64,000 nucleotides of DNA from Butyrivibrio sp. (GTDB taxonomy: Bacteria; Bacillota; Clostridia; Lachnospirales; Lachnospiraceae), in assembly GCA_017535785.1 (NCBI GenBank), contig JAFXTN010000014.1, positions 1-64,000 of the forward strand, written 5' to 3'. Positions within the stretch are counted from its first letter, which is position 1. Each line of letters starts with the position of its first letter. Positions 5,564-50,409 of this stretch are shown here, piece after piece. Below the pieces are notes generated by a model. The model was not told the origin of the DNA. It made no database searches and saw nothing but the letters and a program-made list of their open reading frames with translations. The translations under genes and the position numbers were made by a program.

Positions 5564-6544
5564 TTATTCCAGACTATCAAGATGATCTTTTATGATCTTA
5601 GCGCATTCGTCTGCATGATCCATATAGATTGTGTGAGTACCATGCAAAGAAACAAGTTCACAGTTTCCTGCCTTTTCTTCGAATGGAGTCCAATATGCCT
5701 CTTTATCTGCTTGGTTTTCGTCAAAATAATAAGTAGCATCAATAAATAGTTTTGGGATATTGTTCGGTTCTAAACTATCCAGGACAGTTTTTGAATTTGT
5801 GTATCCCATCGCTGCTTCAGATATATTTGCATGTGCACCGATTGTTTTTGTAGTCAAATAGACATTCATATCAAATTCTTTTTTGGACATATAGTCAGCA
5901 AGTTCTCCACCGTATTTTTTCAGTATAATCGGCGCAAGTCCGGTTTTTTCAAGGATACTAAGGTTATAATATAGATTTTTATTACTTTGTCCCCATTCTT
6001 CGTCTGCATAGGTGCAAAGTGTACCATCCATAAATATTACATCTTCAATTTCATCCGGATATTTGTTCTGCCAATAAGTCGTATAAAGTCCGCCGATTGA
6101 GTGTGCAAGCAAAACATAAGGTCCTTCCTCGCCCATATTTTTGAGAACCGTTCTATAATCTTCTACAATCTGTTCTACGGTACGATCAGTTTTTGTATCC
6201 TCACTGAAACCATAGCCCGCTCTATCTATAAATATAAGCTGATTATCTTCTTCAATACTTTTTGTCATATTTCTCCACGAAAAATTCATGGTACTGTCAT
6301 CTAGTCCCGAACAGCATACTATTTTGTGCTTTCCGTTTTCATTTCCGACCTTTAATGCATTTAGTTTATAATCTCCTGCGGATACCAAATTACAATATCC
6401 GTCTTTTTTTAACTGGCTCATTATGTTTTTAACTTTAACCCTGTAGTGAATAGATGTGATCAATAATAGAACTATCACGACTCCAAGAATTATTGCAATA
6501 ACTTTGCCTATTATTTTTAATGCTTTCATAATACGTTTTTTCAT
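5564..6544 (-). CDS. Membrane-anchored alpha/beta hydrolase
   Basis: A 326-aa protein with a basic N-terminus and one hydrophobic helix (about 10-30), then an alpha/beta-hydrolase domain. The nucleophile elbow is AHSIGG with Ser149. An oxyanion-loop region is seen near CCSGLDD (78-83), and a C-terminal histidine lies in LHGTHT. The helix with no signal-peptidase or lipobox motif suggests an N-terminally anchored extracytoplasmic enzyme. Substrate is unknown; family members include esterases, lipases and proline iminopeptidase-like enzymes. AAGGAG directly abuts the ATG at 6544 and lies 15 nt before the ATG of Met6, so the exact start is uncertain. The promoter carries two BlaI/MecI-like boxes and the gene diverges from the lipoprotein gene. 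Confidence 0.8.
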   Translation of the reverse strand: MKKRIMKALKIIGKVIAIILGVVIVLLLITSIHYRVKVKNIMSQLKKDGYCNLVSAGDYKLNALKVGNENGKHKIVCCSGLDDSTMNFSWRNMTKSIEEDNQLIFIDRAGYGFSEDTKTDRTVEQIVEDYRTVLKNMGEEGPYVLLAHSIGGLYTTYWQNKYPDEIEDVIFMDGTLCTYADEEWGQSNKNLYYNLSILEKTGLAPIILKKYGGELADYMSKKEFDMNVYLTTKTIGAHANISEAAMGYTNSKTVLDSLEPNNIPKLFIDATYYFDENQADKEAYWTPFEEKAGNCELVSLHGTHTIYMDHADECAKIIKDHLDSLE

Positions 6545-6564
6545 CTCCTTACTGCATTCATCGT

Positions 6565-6596
6565 ACTACATGTGTCGTAGTACTACACCTATCGTA
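6565..6596. promoter_or_regulatory. Paired operator-like boxes, BlaI/MecI/CopY-like
   Basis: Two copies of ACTACANNTRTCGTA lie 17 bp apart (6565-6579 and 6582-6596), and a third half-site CTACTACG sits at 6602-6609. Each box is an imperfect dyad (ACTACA facing TGTCGTA). It resembles the TACTACA/TGTAGTA operators known for BlaI/MecI repressors and the TACANNTGTA box of CopY. They cover the predicted start site of the hydrolase transcript. No blaI, mecI or copY gene is in the window. Confidence 0.55.
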
Positions 6597-6598
6597 AT

Positions 6599-6627
6599 AT
6601 CCTACTACGGCTTATATGATATGTCAA
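6599..6627 (-). promoter_or_regulatory. Promoter of the hydrolase gene
   Basis: On the reverse strand TTGACA (6622-6627) and TAGGAT (6599-6604) are separated by 17 bp. The start point would fall near 6592, inside the second operator-like box. Confidence 0.5.
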
Positions 6628-6636
6628 TATTTTGTT

Positions 6637-6665
6637 TTGGCTTATGTGACGGTTTGGGATAAAAT
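6637..6665 (+). promoter_or_regulatory. Promoter of the lipoprotein gene
   Basis: TTGGCT (6637-6642), 17-bp spacer, TAAAAT (6660-6665), about 45 bp before the lipoprotein start. Confidence 0.5.
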
Positions 6666-6710
6666 AGATGAGTGATGACAATTTGGGAGGAGTTTTGAAA
6701 GGGAAAGAGT

Positions 6711-7760
6711 ATGAAAGTAAAAATCAAGAGTAAAACGTTGGCAATTGTTGCAATGACAATTATGTGCATAAACTTAATCGGATGTGAAAGATACAATTCC
6801 TTTTATGACAATGCATCTAATGATAAAACATCTGAGAGCGTAACTGCATCTGAAGAAGCGTCAGAAGATAATACAGGAGATCCTATAAAAATTACAAAGG
6901 ACCCTATACTTTATACGCTGGAAGAAAGCGATCCCGACATGGAAGAGATCGAGTTTGAAGCAAAATCAGATAAGGTCGGTTACTTCATGATCCCTGATCC
7001 CGGAAAAGGAAAAGTGAAGGCGGATCTTGACTGTGACGGAAATACTGAAGCTATTGAGTATGATCTCAAGGCGGATAATAACAACTATGCTGAGAAACTT
7101 ACTCTTACAATCAATGGAAAAGAGTATGATGTGCCGGAAATAGGTAGTTATAGTGCCTATTGCAGAATGGAGCTTTTTTGGTTAAATACCGGCGAATCGC
7201 TATACATGTATCTTCAGTGCATGACAGATAATGATTGGACGATATTGGGTGTATATAAAGTCGAGGATAATACAATTCGTTATGTAGGTGAAGAGGGCTT
7301 AGATGTTTCTTTTACCATACAAGATGATAACGGCTCCAATACTGAAATATATATCACGGACCCTGAAGATTTCTTGGTAAAGGGTTATGTATCTATGTTT
7401 GGAACTTGGAACTATACTGAGAGATACAGGGTAGGACAGGATGGAATGCCGGAGAGTATCAACGGGTATAGATATCTCACTTCTAATAATTCATATGAGA
7501 TAACGGCAAAAAAGGATATTCCATGCGTAGTGTGTCAGGATGAAGCTGCGACATCCGGCGAAAACAGCACAATTCCAAGTGGTATGAAGGTTACACCTAT
7601 CGGATGTGATGGAAAAACTTTTGTGGATCTTAAATTAGATGGCAAAGATGGGATCTACAGGATAAATGTACATGAAAAAGATGAGTATCAATGGGGACTG
7701 ACAGACTTAGGTGGAAAAAGTGTAGAGGATTGTTTTGATGGATTACCGTTTTGGGGATGA
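6711..7760 (+). CDS. Secreted lipoprotein, function unknown
   Basis: A 349-aa protein with a type II signal peptide: basic MKVKIKSK, hydrophobic stretch, and lipobox LIGC with the lipidated Cys near residue 25. An acidic, Ser/Thr/Glu-rich linker follows (about 30-70). The body contains one segment like a calcium-binding or FG-GAP-type loop (DLDCDGNTEAIEYDL near 105-120) and is rich in aromatic beta-strand sequence. I cannot assign a family beyond 'extracellular beta-rich lipoprotein'. It is preceded by its own promoter and followed by no clear terminator. It diverges from the anchored hydrolase, so both products act outside the cytoplasm and may be co-regulated (inference). Confidence 0.8.
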   Translation: MKVKIKSKTLAIVAMTIMCINLIGCERYNSFYDNASNDKTSESVTASEEASEDNTGDPIKITKDPILYTLEESDPDMEEIEFEAKSDKVGYFMIPDPGKGKVKADLDCDGNTEAIEYDLKADNNNYAEKLTLTINGKEYDVPEIGSYSAYCRMELFWLNTGESLYMYLQCMTDNDWTILGVYKVEDNTIRYVGEEGLDVSFTIQDDNGSNTEIYITDPEDFLVKGYVSMFGTWNYTERYRVGQDGMPESINGYRYLTSNNSYEITAKKDIPCVVCQDEAATSGENSTIPSGMKVTPIGCDGKTFVDLKLDGKDGIYRINVHEKDEYQWGLTDLGGKSVEDCFDGLPFWG

Positions 7761-48450: not shown

Positions 48451-48957
48451 ATGGCAAAAGTATTTCATGTAGATCATCAGATAGACAAGAAGAATGTGGA
48501 GGACTCAATAACAGAGTGGACCAGAGTCGTTAAGTATGGCGACATCAATAGCGAGAACAGGCTGTTTGGTGGCAAGCTCATGTCGTGGATCGATGAAGTT
48601 GCGGGGACGGTTGCATTAAGACATTCAGGAAATCCTGTAGCGACAGCTGCTGTAGATAACATGCAGTTCAAGCAGGGAGCTAAGCTCGACGATATCATCG
48701 TTATAATCGGAAAGATCACTTATGTCGGCAAGACTTCTATGGAAGTCAGAGTCGATACATATGTTGAAGATAGACGTAACGGGATGCGGCATGTTCTCAA
48801 CAGGGCATATCTCACAGAGGTGTGTATCGATGATGACGATAGTCCGGTTCTTGTTCCTTACGGCTTGAACATTAAAACTGAATCCGAAAGAGCTGAGTGG
48901 GAAGGCGCCGAAAAGCGCATAGCACTTAGAAAACAGCGCAGGATGGAAGGATTCTAA
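48451..48957 (+). CDS. Acyl-CoA thioesterase, hotdog fold
   Basis: A 168-aa protein from the ATG at 48451 (GGAGGG 7 nt upstream). The YciA/BACH-type hotdog signature is NSENRLFGGKLMSWIDEVAGTVALRH near 34-59, with the catalytic Asp/Glu in the WIDEVAG helix. VDNMQFKQGAKLDDIIVI follows near 71-88. It hydrolyses acyl-CoA thioesters; chain-length preference cannot be read. Its position upstream of ptb-buk is suggestive for acyl-CoA metabolism, but 540 bp with a terminator lie between them, so they are separate transcription units. Confidence 0.9.
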   Translation: MAKVFHVDHQIDKKNVEDSITEWTRVVKYGDINSENRLFGGKLMSWIDEVAGTVALRHSGNPVATAAVDNMQFKQGAKLDDIIVIIGKITYVGKTSMEVRVDTYVEDRRNGMRHVLNRAYLTEVCIDDDDSPVLVPYGLNIKTESERAEWEGAEKRIALRKQRRMEGF

Positions 48958-48990
48958 GGAATTCTTTTTCTGAGATTATATGAAGTGATA

Positions 48991-49030
48991 AACACGGCAG
49001 GTGAGATCTGATTGGCTGCCGTGTTTTTTC
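48991..49030 (+). terminator. Terminator after the thioesterase gene
   Basis: The perfect 10-bp stem AACACGGCAG/CTGCCGTGTT (48991-49000 with 49016-49025) is followed by Ts. Confidence 0.88.
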
Positions 49031-49037
49031 TTCTCTT

Positions 49038-49309
49038 AACAGATAGAAATCTATATTTGCTTGTTTTTATCTGTGTATTTCCCGGGTTTTTCTCTTGGGA
49101 AATTCTTCAAACCACAGATAAGTTGCTTTTTCTCGAGTGTTTTATCTGTGGTTTTTTACTATTCTTCATAAACCATTTCCTTTTTTCTTCAAAAAACCAC
49201 AGACTTATTTAAGCATTTTCTAACTCTTATCTGTGTTCTTATGAAAATCTCCACGAATTGCGTTCAGAAATCACAGATAAACAGAGCTTTTTATGCAATT
49301 TTATCTGTA
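49038..49309. repeat. Array of four 38-bp dyad elements (CACAGATAA-N20-TTATCTGTG)
   Basis: Four units at 49038-49075, 49113-49150, 49198-49235 and 49272-49309. Each has a left arm (C/A)ACAGATAA, exactly 20 variable bases, and a right arm TTATCTGT(G/A). Unit 1 has left arm AACAGATAG, unit 3 CACAGACTT, and unit 4 ends in A. Unit-to-unit steps are 75, 85 and 74 bp; spacers are 37, 47 and 36 bp. Spacers can also pair inside: ATTTCCC/GGGAAAT in the first, and TCTGTGGTTTTTT with AAAAAACCACAGA across the second. A degenerate fifth unit may lie at 49351-49393. The forward strand is T/C-rich. No gene lies in this 540-bp interval. Confidence 0.75.
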
Positions 49310-49494
49310 ATTATCCTGATCCGATTTTTCTCTTTTTCATGGTGCTAGAAAGACAGGTTTTAGATACGCCTGTGTAAGATTAAAGCGTCTGTGATCATAT
49401 CAGTATATTGCATTTATAACATCTGAGTGTTAAAATTTTGACATATGGCTTTGAATATTACATATCATATAAATTATGTGGAGGTTTTTTTATC

Positions 49495-50409
49495 ATGAGT
49501 AAGAACTTTGATGACATTTTGGCTAAGCTTAAGACAGCGACAACCAAGAAGATGTCTGTTGCCGTAGCGCAGGACACACACGTACTTGAGGCTGTTAAGG
49601 TGGCTAAGGAGAGAGGAATCGTTGAACCCATTCTCGTTGGTGACAAGGATGAGATCGCGAAGAAGGCAGCAGAGGTTGGAATGAACCTTGACGATTACGA
49701 GATCATCGATGTTAAGGATACCATCGAGGCTGCTCGTACAGCGGTTTCACTTGTACATGACGGCAAGGCTGACATTTACATGAAGGGTGCTTTGGAGTCC
49801 AAGGATTTCCTTAAGAGCGTTCTTGATAAGGAAGTTGGTCTTCGTACAGGTCGTCCTCTTTCACACGTATGCGTGTTTGAGATTCCCGGAATCGATCGTC
49901 TTCTTTTCCTTACAGACGTTGCATTCATGCCCTATCCGACACTTGAGGATAAAAAAGTCATCATTGAATATACAGTAGATGTAGCAAGAGCTTGCGGCGT
50001 TGATTGCCCTAAGGTTGCTCCGCTTGCAGCAGTTGAGGTTGTTAATCCCAAGATGCCCGTTACAGTTGAGGCTGCTGAGCTTACAAGACTCAACGAGGAA
50101 GGCGAGATCAAGAACTGCATCGTTGACGGACCTCTTTCAATGGATCTTGCTATCGATCCCGAGGCTGCTCAGCACAAGGCAGGAGCTCTTGACAGAAAGA
50201 TCGTCGGCGACGCCGATATCCTTCTTTTCCCTGATATCCACGCAGGTAACCTTACATACAAGACAATCGTAAGACTTGCCAAGGTTAAGAACGGTAACAT
50301 CCTTACAGGAACAAAGGCACCCGTTATCCTTACATCAAGATCTGACAGTGTTGAGGTTAAGGTTAACTCAATCGCATTAGCAGCTGTTGTAGCAGCTGAG
50401 AGAACTTGA
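49495..50409 (+). CDS. ptb: Phosphate butyryltransferase
   Basis: A 304-aa enzyme converting butyryl-CoA plus phosphate to butyryl phosphate and CoA. It belongs to the phosphate acetyl/butyryltransferase family: AQDTHVLEAVKVAKERGIVEPILVGD at the start, YMKGALESKDFLKSVLD, SHVCVFEIPGIDRLLFLTD, and DGPLSMDLAIDPEAA near 220. Length agrees with Ptb (about 300 aa). The ATG at 49495 follows GTGGAGG. With buk 89 bp downstream it forms the classic two-gene terminal butyrate operon. High use of preferred codons suggests strong expression. Confidence 0.93.
   Translation: MSKNFDDILAKLKTATTKKMSVAVAQDTHVLEAVKVAKERGIVEPILVGDKDEIAKKAAEVGMNLDDYEIIDVKDTIEAARTAVSLVHDGKADIYMKGALESKDFLKSVLDKEVGLRTGRPLSHVCVFEIPGIDRLLFLTDVAFMPYPTLEDKKVIIEYTVDVARACGVDCPKVAPLAAVEVVNPKMPVTVEAAELTRLNEEGEIKNCIVDGPLSMDLAIDPEAAQHKAGALDRKIVGDADILLFPDIHAGNLTYKTIVRLAKVKNGNILTGTKAPVILTSRSDSVEVKVNSIALAAVVAAERT

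Follow-up and report, generated by a model that had tools for sequence, protein, structure and literature searches.

Phased arrays of inverted repeats in Butyrivibrio, one of them upstream of ptb, belong to a dispersed family linked to genes for predicted nucleases

Among described bacterial repeats, those closest to the arrays reported here are the REPINs with their RAYT enzymes. In the parts of the literature cited, RAYTs are described as genes in distinct single copy and REPINs as non-autonomous elements (PMC3116915); the RAYTs (TnpAREP) are members of the HUH superfamily and process REP sequences as single strands (PMC3116915, PMC8266576), these sequences being palindromes tagged with GTAG or CGTC (PMC3733652). 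The present repeats are likewise extragenic, inverted, dispersed, apparently non-autonomous and, we infer, mobilised. So far as the cited accounts go, both systems have a single-copy enzyme gene near its own repeats and variants of the enzyme paired with distinct repeats. The differences lie in the candidate enzyme, which has a PD-(D/E)XK-like core and matches no Pfam family, in the phasing of the dyads, which is that of sites on double-stranded DNA, and in the tags, neither of which was found in the 92 dyads of the CAGATAA arm family, the one family in which they were sought. Because the enzyme that defines the REPIN/RAYT group, an HUH Y1 tyrosine transposase, was not found, the system is not a member of that group.

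The BOX, RUP and SPRITE repeats of Streptococcus pneumoniae resemble ours in being small and interspersed and, in the cited part of the account, in having proliferated within one lineage; they differ in that no dedicated cognate enzyme is named there (PMC3049150), and in that chiefly arms and spacing are conserved in the arrays studied here. At the protein level, the C-terminal nuclease domain described below is similar to that of the PADLOC families PDC-S68 and HEAT_CxxC_PDDEXK. The PDC-S68 profiles, however, span 1202-1273 positions and match only at their end, and homologues having just this domain lacked an array of at least three dyads in the stretches examined. BOX elements have a modular copy number. 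The operators of ComK and NrdR show helical-turn spacing, with paired sites on one helix face, a likeness to the arrangement of the dyads, but we know of no operators of this type that disperse as whole arrays or are linked to a nuclease. No description of the protein or of the repeat family was found in the open-licence PMC literature, bioRxiv excluded; an earlier description elsewhere is possible.

The array from which this analysis started lies in the window, a stretch of 64,000 nucleotides of a Butyrivibrio sp. genome (contig JAFXTN010000014.1; genome G000 among our handles, in which G, C and L stand for genomes, contigs and loci). With up to three mismatches allowed, the pattern CACAGATAA-N20-TTATCTGTG is found four times, at 49038..49075 (AACAGATAG-N20-TTATCTGTG, two mismatches), 49113..49150 (the perfect form, with no mismatch), 49198..49235 (a degenerate left arm, CACAGACTT; three mismatches) and 49272..49309 (CACAGATAA-N20-TTATCTGTA, one mismatch). 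The number expected by chance is 0.02, and none of 100 dinucleotide shuffles contained four such dyads. The first-pass annotation, made from the letters of the window, had placed the dyads and their steps of 75, 85 and 74 bp correctly, and the random-sequence comparison that it proposed went in its favour. The arms, perfect in one dyad only, are conserved across the four but not identical. An exactly constant length of 38 bp, also claimed at that stage, holds in the window and not in the repeat family as a whole, where inner lengths of 19 and 21 are used as well. The additional pairing between spacer segments TCTGTGGTTTTTT and AAAAAACCACAGA is present, and that of ATTTCCC with GGGAAAT can be read in the sequence. 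Another spacer segment, TATTTCCCGGG at 49077-49086, resembles half of a Noc-binding site, probably by chance. A generic scan of the 64 kb in overlapping 700-bp tiles (at least three dyads of one type) gave no second array.

The window dyads are members of a repeat family, CAGATAA-N19-21-TTATCTG, that is dispersed through the intergenic DNA of Butyrivibrio and occurs in Treponema also. The genome of the window has at least four array loci, on contigs C29 (the window), C4 (four dyads), C33 (three) and C22 (three); it holds 15 exact N19-21 dyads altogether, part of them assigned to these loci. A match at C23:59301, considered as a further array, was rejected as a lone dyad-like sequence with no array around it. 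Among 79 genomes of the genus, the exact N20 form was found in 12 and at least one N19-21 form in 30, while the reversed pattern used as a control for the latter search matched in a single genome. The genomes richest in N19-21 dyads were G023 (54), G049 (35), G005 (17), G000 (15) and G004 (11). Named genomes yielded 71 stretches matching a two-unit pattern, of which 43 carry Butyrivibrio in their title (B. hungatei XBD2006 and NK4A153, Butyrivibrio sp. LB2008 and M55, and rumen MAGs). Candidatus Treponema equifaecale carries an array of six dyads with a step of 64, and arrays were also found in the Lachnospiraceae MAGs RGIG3179 and UBA1729, in a Clostridiales MAG and in bacterium SUG1685. Isolated matches in cyanobacteria, Acinetobacter and other such taxa are probably fortuitous. 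In strain LB2008 (L048), a run of N splits the array into parts at 5816-5928 and 6540-6727, between genes for large secreted-looking proteins.

The inner length, taken over 112 dyads of this family, is 20 in 64, 21 in 42 and 19 in 6. A gap of 36 bp separates successive dyads in 51 of 79 cases, one of 26 in 13 and one of 46-47 in 4, and the steps are mostly 64, 74-75 or 85. Position frequencies and covariation were taken from 92 of the 112 dyads, similar copies and one stray being left out. In these 92 CAGATAA dyads the half-sites share an asymmetric motif that extends past the core and includes A-tracts; in 43-48% a C is found ten bases outside. Arrays avoid genes, as only 6 of 58 lie mostly within an ORF of at least 150 aa, compared with 46.6 expected (the 58 are those of 66 array candidates that remain once matches in unrelated taxa are left out). 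The same arms and spacing thus recur in intergenic arrays of several genomes when this genome and related Lachnospiraceae are searched, as the first-pass annotation had advised. This recurrence supports its suggestion of a new repeat family and, together with steps that amount to whole helical turns (see below), its view that the geometry is under selection.

The key fact lay out of sight of a reading confined to the window: genes for nuclease-like proteins have arrays of their own. The arrays in L114 (B. hungatei NK4A153), L128, L059 and L119 (Treponema), all with the same arms as the window array, are each adjoined by a gene whose product has about 280 aa, and such a gene lies 1.5 kb from a doubtful array in L111 (Pseudobutyrivibrio). 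In B. hungatei, Butyrivibrio sp. LB2008 and T. equifaecale the array is found just upstream of the gene. The generality of this linkage was assessed by comparing loci, with a dyad finder (8-bp arms, one mismatch) and an arm similarity measure that were both purpose-made. Within 700 bp upstream of the gene, at least two dyads of one arm type and constant inner length were present at 24 of 30 loci obtained by protein search, the counts for comparison being 3 of 30 on the downstream side, none of 30 in shuffled sequence and one of 58 in ptb segments; a stricter, earlier test had scored 14 of 30 gene loci versus 2 of 29 ptb loci. In an enlarged set examined over 800 bp, at least two dyads were found upstream at 38 of 49 loci and on either side at 41, and at least three dyads at 36. 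These counts become 36, 39 and 34 of 47 on leaving out L119 and L111, both found via their arrays, and at the same settings the controls scored once in 58 ptb sides and not at all in 49 shuffles. Near-identical genes are retained in this set, 34 of the 40 array-bearing ones being below 85% identity. Twelve further loci were fetched, 11 of them new (L294 is L200) and six picked because their genomes had dyads without a matching gene; 9 of the 11 had an array on either side, one of these weak. No array was seen at 8 of the 49 loci and 2 of the 11, and some two-dyad matches are weak, with steps of 159-323. At L174, L209, L284, L286 and L291 arrays bracket the gene on both sides, as if they were the ends of a larger unit.

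The proteins, of about 260-290 aa, are predicted from sequence to combine a family-specific N-terminal region with a C-terminal PD-(D/E)XK-like nuclease core. No Pfam or NCBIfam model reached its cut-off, none of four proteins matched a Pfam transposase, and no solved-structure match was found. The C-terminal half matches the PADLOC candidate nuclease domains PDC-S68 (E 5e-28) and HEAT_CxxC_PDDEXK (E 3.5e-5), these matches coming from two proteins, and a PHROG Holliday junction resolvase was matched (E 8e-6) by one of the two proteins scanned. Residues R172, K174, E176, E193, D207, F208, E222, H223, G225 and E259 are invariant in 51 of 51 sequences and resemble an active site, with RSK.E, PDF and EH.G as the invariant motifs. 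Relatives of the protein occur in 69 of the 79 genus genomes, with one to nine matches per genome. Among 398 genomes of the phylum the full-length form is present in five, all of the window's own taxonomic family, and the nuclease part only in nine more. Homologues consisting of the nuclease domain only had at least three dyads in 0 of 9 cases and one two-dyad 800-bp tile in 3 of 9, in DNA that mostly lacked the upstream region.

Viral contigs contained neither a stretch with the two-unit pattern nor a relative of the protein. An unannotated 4.2-kb faecal scaffold titled 'Bacteriophage sp.' (L271, MT839528.1) encodes a homologue with 30% identity across 92% of the query, with no upstream array and with two dyads 94 bp apart downstream. 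A phage element was rejected on these grounds, and a plasmid element because the plasmid matches, six records, are to the nuclease domain only. An in-frame TAG in L176-L179 and L181 turned out to be merely the gene end, aligned to residue 279 of 280.

Paralogues differ in the arms that accompany them, with 27 arm families among them. Arm similarity tracks protein identity (Mantel r=0.33; 0 of 5000 permutations, p<1/5000; 34 of 40 loci used). The nearest relative in the set to the Treponema protein, L288 (G046), is 42% identical to it and shares its arms and, approximately, its 64-bp step. Three paralogues in the window's genome (L201, L202 and L203, on contigs 20 and 2) have regular upstream arrays of their own, of 5-6 dyads each, with arms CGCACCGC (step 52), CTGTTGAA (step 54) and CTGCCACT (step 53), none of them CAGATAA.

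Distinct steps in the 27 arm families fall at 51-54, 63-65, 72-76, 84-85, 94-95, 104-107 and 127-128. The period that best accounts for them is 10.59 bp (R=0.873; family-level Rayleigh p ~1.6e-10), and none of 2000 uniform null sets equalled this phasing over periods of 6-20 bp. A spacing of 10.59 bp is the helical repeat of DNA. That the phasing holds across 27 arm families suggests reading of the dyads from one face of duplex DNA.

Spreading of arrays by a gene type would lead one to expect CGGATAA dyads wherever a genome has the CGGATAA-type gene. This prediction was borne out in five of five such genomes (G008, 18 dyads; G009, 12; G030, 2; G052, 7; G067, 28), the counts including the gene-adjacent array, which in G030 is all that was found; CGGATAA dyads were absent from five CAGATAA-rich genomes. 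The G009 gene has a short N-terminus and is 93-98% identical over 218 aa, and no array was found upstream of it. Counting against the prediction, CGGATAA dyads occur with no matching gene found in G007 (16 dyads; three of nine relatives examined), in G038 (4 dyads; none of four examined) and in G077, which has 5 dyads and zero relatives of the protein. L264 and L265 are among the three G007 paralogues examined, none of which is of the CGGATAA type.

A close CAGATAA-type gene is present in G004, G005 and G023, where in all three it is followed by one and the same gene, kinase-like, and preceded by tex or the end of tex (the names tex, sugar kinase and thioesterase were read from translations or taken from the first-pass annotation). 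At the tex-kinase site of the array-rich G049 this gene is cut to its last 74 codons (L204:3050-3271), with degenerate arms alongside. Occupation of the same site in three genomes, with a remnant in a fourth, accords with a single-copy enzyme gene like that of the RAYTs. In G069 and G070, tex and the kinase are present and the gene is not, and G046, which carries an array with 64-bp steps, has a CAGATAA-type gene of its own. Again there are counts in the opposite sense, with no matching gene among the relatives examined in G062 (6 CAGATAA dyads; two of six examined), G050 (5 dyads; two of four) and G069 (4 dyads; one of seven, and no gene at the tex site). Nor was a close cognate gene found in the window's own genome, whose best paralogues are 34-39% identical and have other arms. 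A tex query of this 91%-complete assembly gave no true match, only a short weak one (E 2e-5), so that the cognate gene may sit in an assembly gap or have been lost.

Whole arrays recur at non-orthologous sites, and comparison of such pairs places the edges of the common sequence near the arms. L042 and L043 of B. hungatei XBD2006, which have unrelated neighbours, share 180 bp at 87%, a block that starts 2 bp before the first arm and stops 1 bp after the last. In a second arm family, L253 and L256 of G008 are alike at 74.5%, with edges at -1 to +2. Among the pairs listed, non-orthologous arrays seldom have common sequence that reaches further than some 30 bp past the array; L253/L254, L260/L261 and L096/L099 do have roughly 30 bp more in common beyond the arms, which counts against arm-bounded copying. 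At orthologous sites, arrays may be present in one genome and absent in another. The L016 and L017 arrays of G000 are absent at the corresponding places in G028 and G070, where the surroundings differ too; relative to its relatives, G000 has replaced or extra sequence there and no clean insertion. Inspection by eye of outer array flanks disclosed no target-site duplication. The G000 comparisons gave no clean empty site, and in six genomes queried no contiguous empty site for L043 was found.

The array of the window starts just past a terminator-like hairpin (48992..49029, plus strand) that follows the upstream thioesterase gene; the hairpin, recognised from its sequence, its fold and an alignment with L145, is common to the array-less G049. 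Downstream lie a conserved ptb upstream element (AGTGTTAAAATTTTGACATATGG; 49426..49448, plus strand), similar in relatives without the array, and ptb itself (49495..50409, plus strand), an ORF whose name comes from the first-pass annotation. The hairpin, the element and ptb are neighbours and not parts of the array. A match to the ptb protein is present in 76 of the 79 genus genomes, not all of these being ptb. In the orthologous thioesterase-ptb gap, G049 (L145) and eight other loci read have no array, and the ptb upstream element is kept. These absences speak against a conserved regulatory element of the ptb-buk operon; absence upstream of ptb in close relatives was one of the refuting outcomes named in the first-pass annotation. 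Just past the terminator-like hairpin, L145 has a different palindrome, TTGAATAGGAAATTCCTATTCAA.

Taken together, these comparisons lead us to regard the window array (49038..49309), with its four co-phased dyads, as probably a gene-less, non-autonomous copy of the CAGATAA-type array that a family of nuclease-like proteins would recognise, cut and mobilise, resident at this site with no demonstrated role for ptb. The N-terminal region, which is missing from homologues with the nuclease domain only, would read the arms in double-stranded DNA, and dyads on one face of the helix would be bound together. An array upstream of the gene could then let the protein control expression of its own gene. 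The nuclease may cut at arrays, and repair of the break may copy whole arrays to new intergenic sites, as is thought for RAYTs and REPINs.

Whether this amounts to an undescribed class of element, made up of diversifying PD-(D/E)XK nucleases that each read their own helically phased duplex array, are autoregulated and spread gene-less copies, in the manner of REPINs and RAYTs but with an independent origin and an unrelated enzyme, seems to us an evenly balanced question. If so, it would be a second, independent bacterial system in which an enzyme and its repeats colonise intergenic DNA, present in rumen and gut bacteria that do not lend themselves readily to study, and the approximately 27 matched arm families and nucleases would constitute a ready-made protein-DNA recognition code, with specificity predictable from sequence and directly testable. 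For a protein family without a Pfam or NCBIfam model in the scans made, it offers a first functional lead.

The main rivals to this interpretation are that the protein purely serves an operator regulon and that it is a defence-type nuclease whose dispersed arrays are decoys. In the former, which we consider unlikely though it is the most serious competitor, the protein would be chiefly an autorepressor or DNA-binding regulator and the dispersed arrays operators of scattered genes, spread by ordinary duplication and kept for regulation. Arrays upstream of the protein's own gene (38 of 49 loci), the intergenic location of the dispersed ones (6 of 58 mostly in an ORF, 46.6 expected) and a helical phasing typical of cooperative operators are all as such a regulon would have them. 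Yet no common theme was seen among the neighbour genes of dispersed arrays, in a reading of the ORFs by eye, and some arrays sit directly 3' of gene ends, that of L017 lying 9 bp past a gene. Relatives lack the window array at ptb, and the retention of nuclease-like residues in 51 of 51 sequences suggests that cutting matters.

A defence or addiction nuclease, serving in immunity or acting like a toxin, repressed or sequestered by its array and with dispersed arrays as titrating decoys, is less probable still. The resemblance to PDC-S68 and HEAT_CxxC_PDDEXK, on which this idea draws, is restricted to the nuclease domain, and homologues with that domain only had arrays of at least three dyads in 0 of 9 of the stretches examined. 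A genome with many divergent paralogues is the usual pattern for defence genes, but no partner gene could be seen next to the five loci read.

That the arrays are ordinary MITEs moved by some transposase, with the nuclease as an incidental passenger, we hold to be very improbable. Whole-array recurrence, intergenic location and the finding of arrays without a matching gene in several genomes would all suit MITEs. Terminal inverted repeats are there as well, in that a left arm comes first and a right arm last (by the calling method) and the common sequence of paralogous arrays stops at or near the arms. An incidental passenger, however, would leave it a coincidence that distinct paralogues pair with distinct arms, that the arms track protein similarity and that genomes with a given gene type carry matching dyads.

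Least probable of all is a structured RNA, be it an sRNA or a row of hairpins in the ptb leader. Although the region folds better than shuffles (z -5.3 on the plus strand, 48955-49495; -5.4 on the minus strand, 49030-49320) and two within-dyad positions covary, palindromic DNA folds well by construction, the steps of 27 arm families fit the repeat of B-DNA, the array is missing at ptb in relatives, and Rfam matched two tRNAs only in the window and nothing above threshold at 48950-49500. The covarying positions are 2 of 19 (p=0.0005 and 0.003, uncorrected) and leave room for a hairpin step in the model favoured above. Right arms had also been said to pair with the next left arm; the extra pairing is there, and covariation across the family is slight (2 of 17 positions at p<0.01, uncorrected). 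A CRISPR array was rejected, as the arms alone are conserved and inner and spacer sequences both vary; so, from the sequence, were simple terminators, the stems being AT-rich and the loop about 20.

The sole match in the ptb controls, on the right ptb flank in L158, is a pair of GTGACTAA-N20 dyads 64 bp apart. Its arms are identical to those beside the nuclease genes of L187, L188 and L193, and it is perhaps another dispersed array near ptb.
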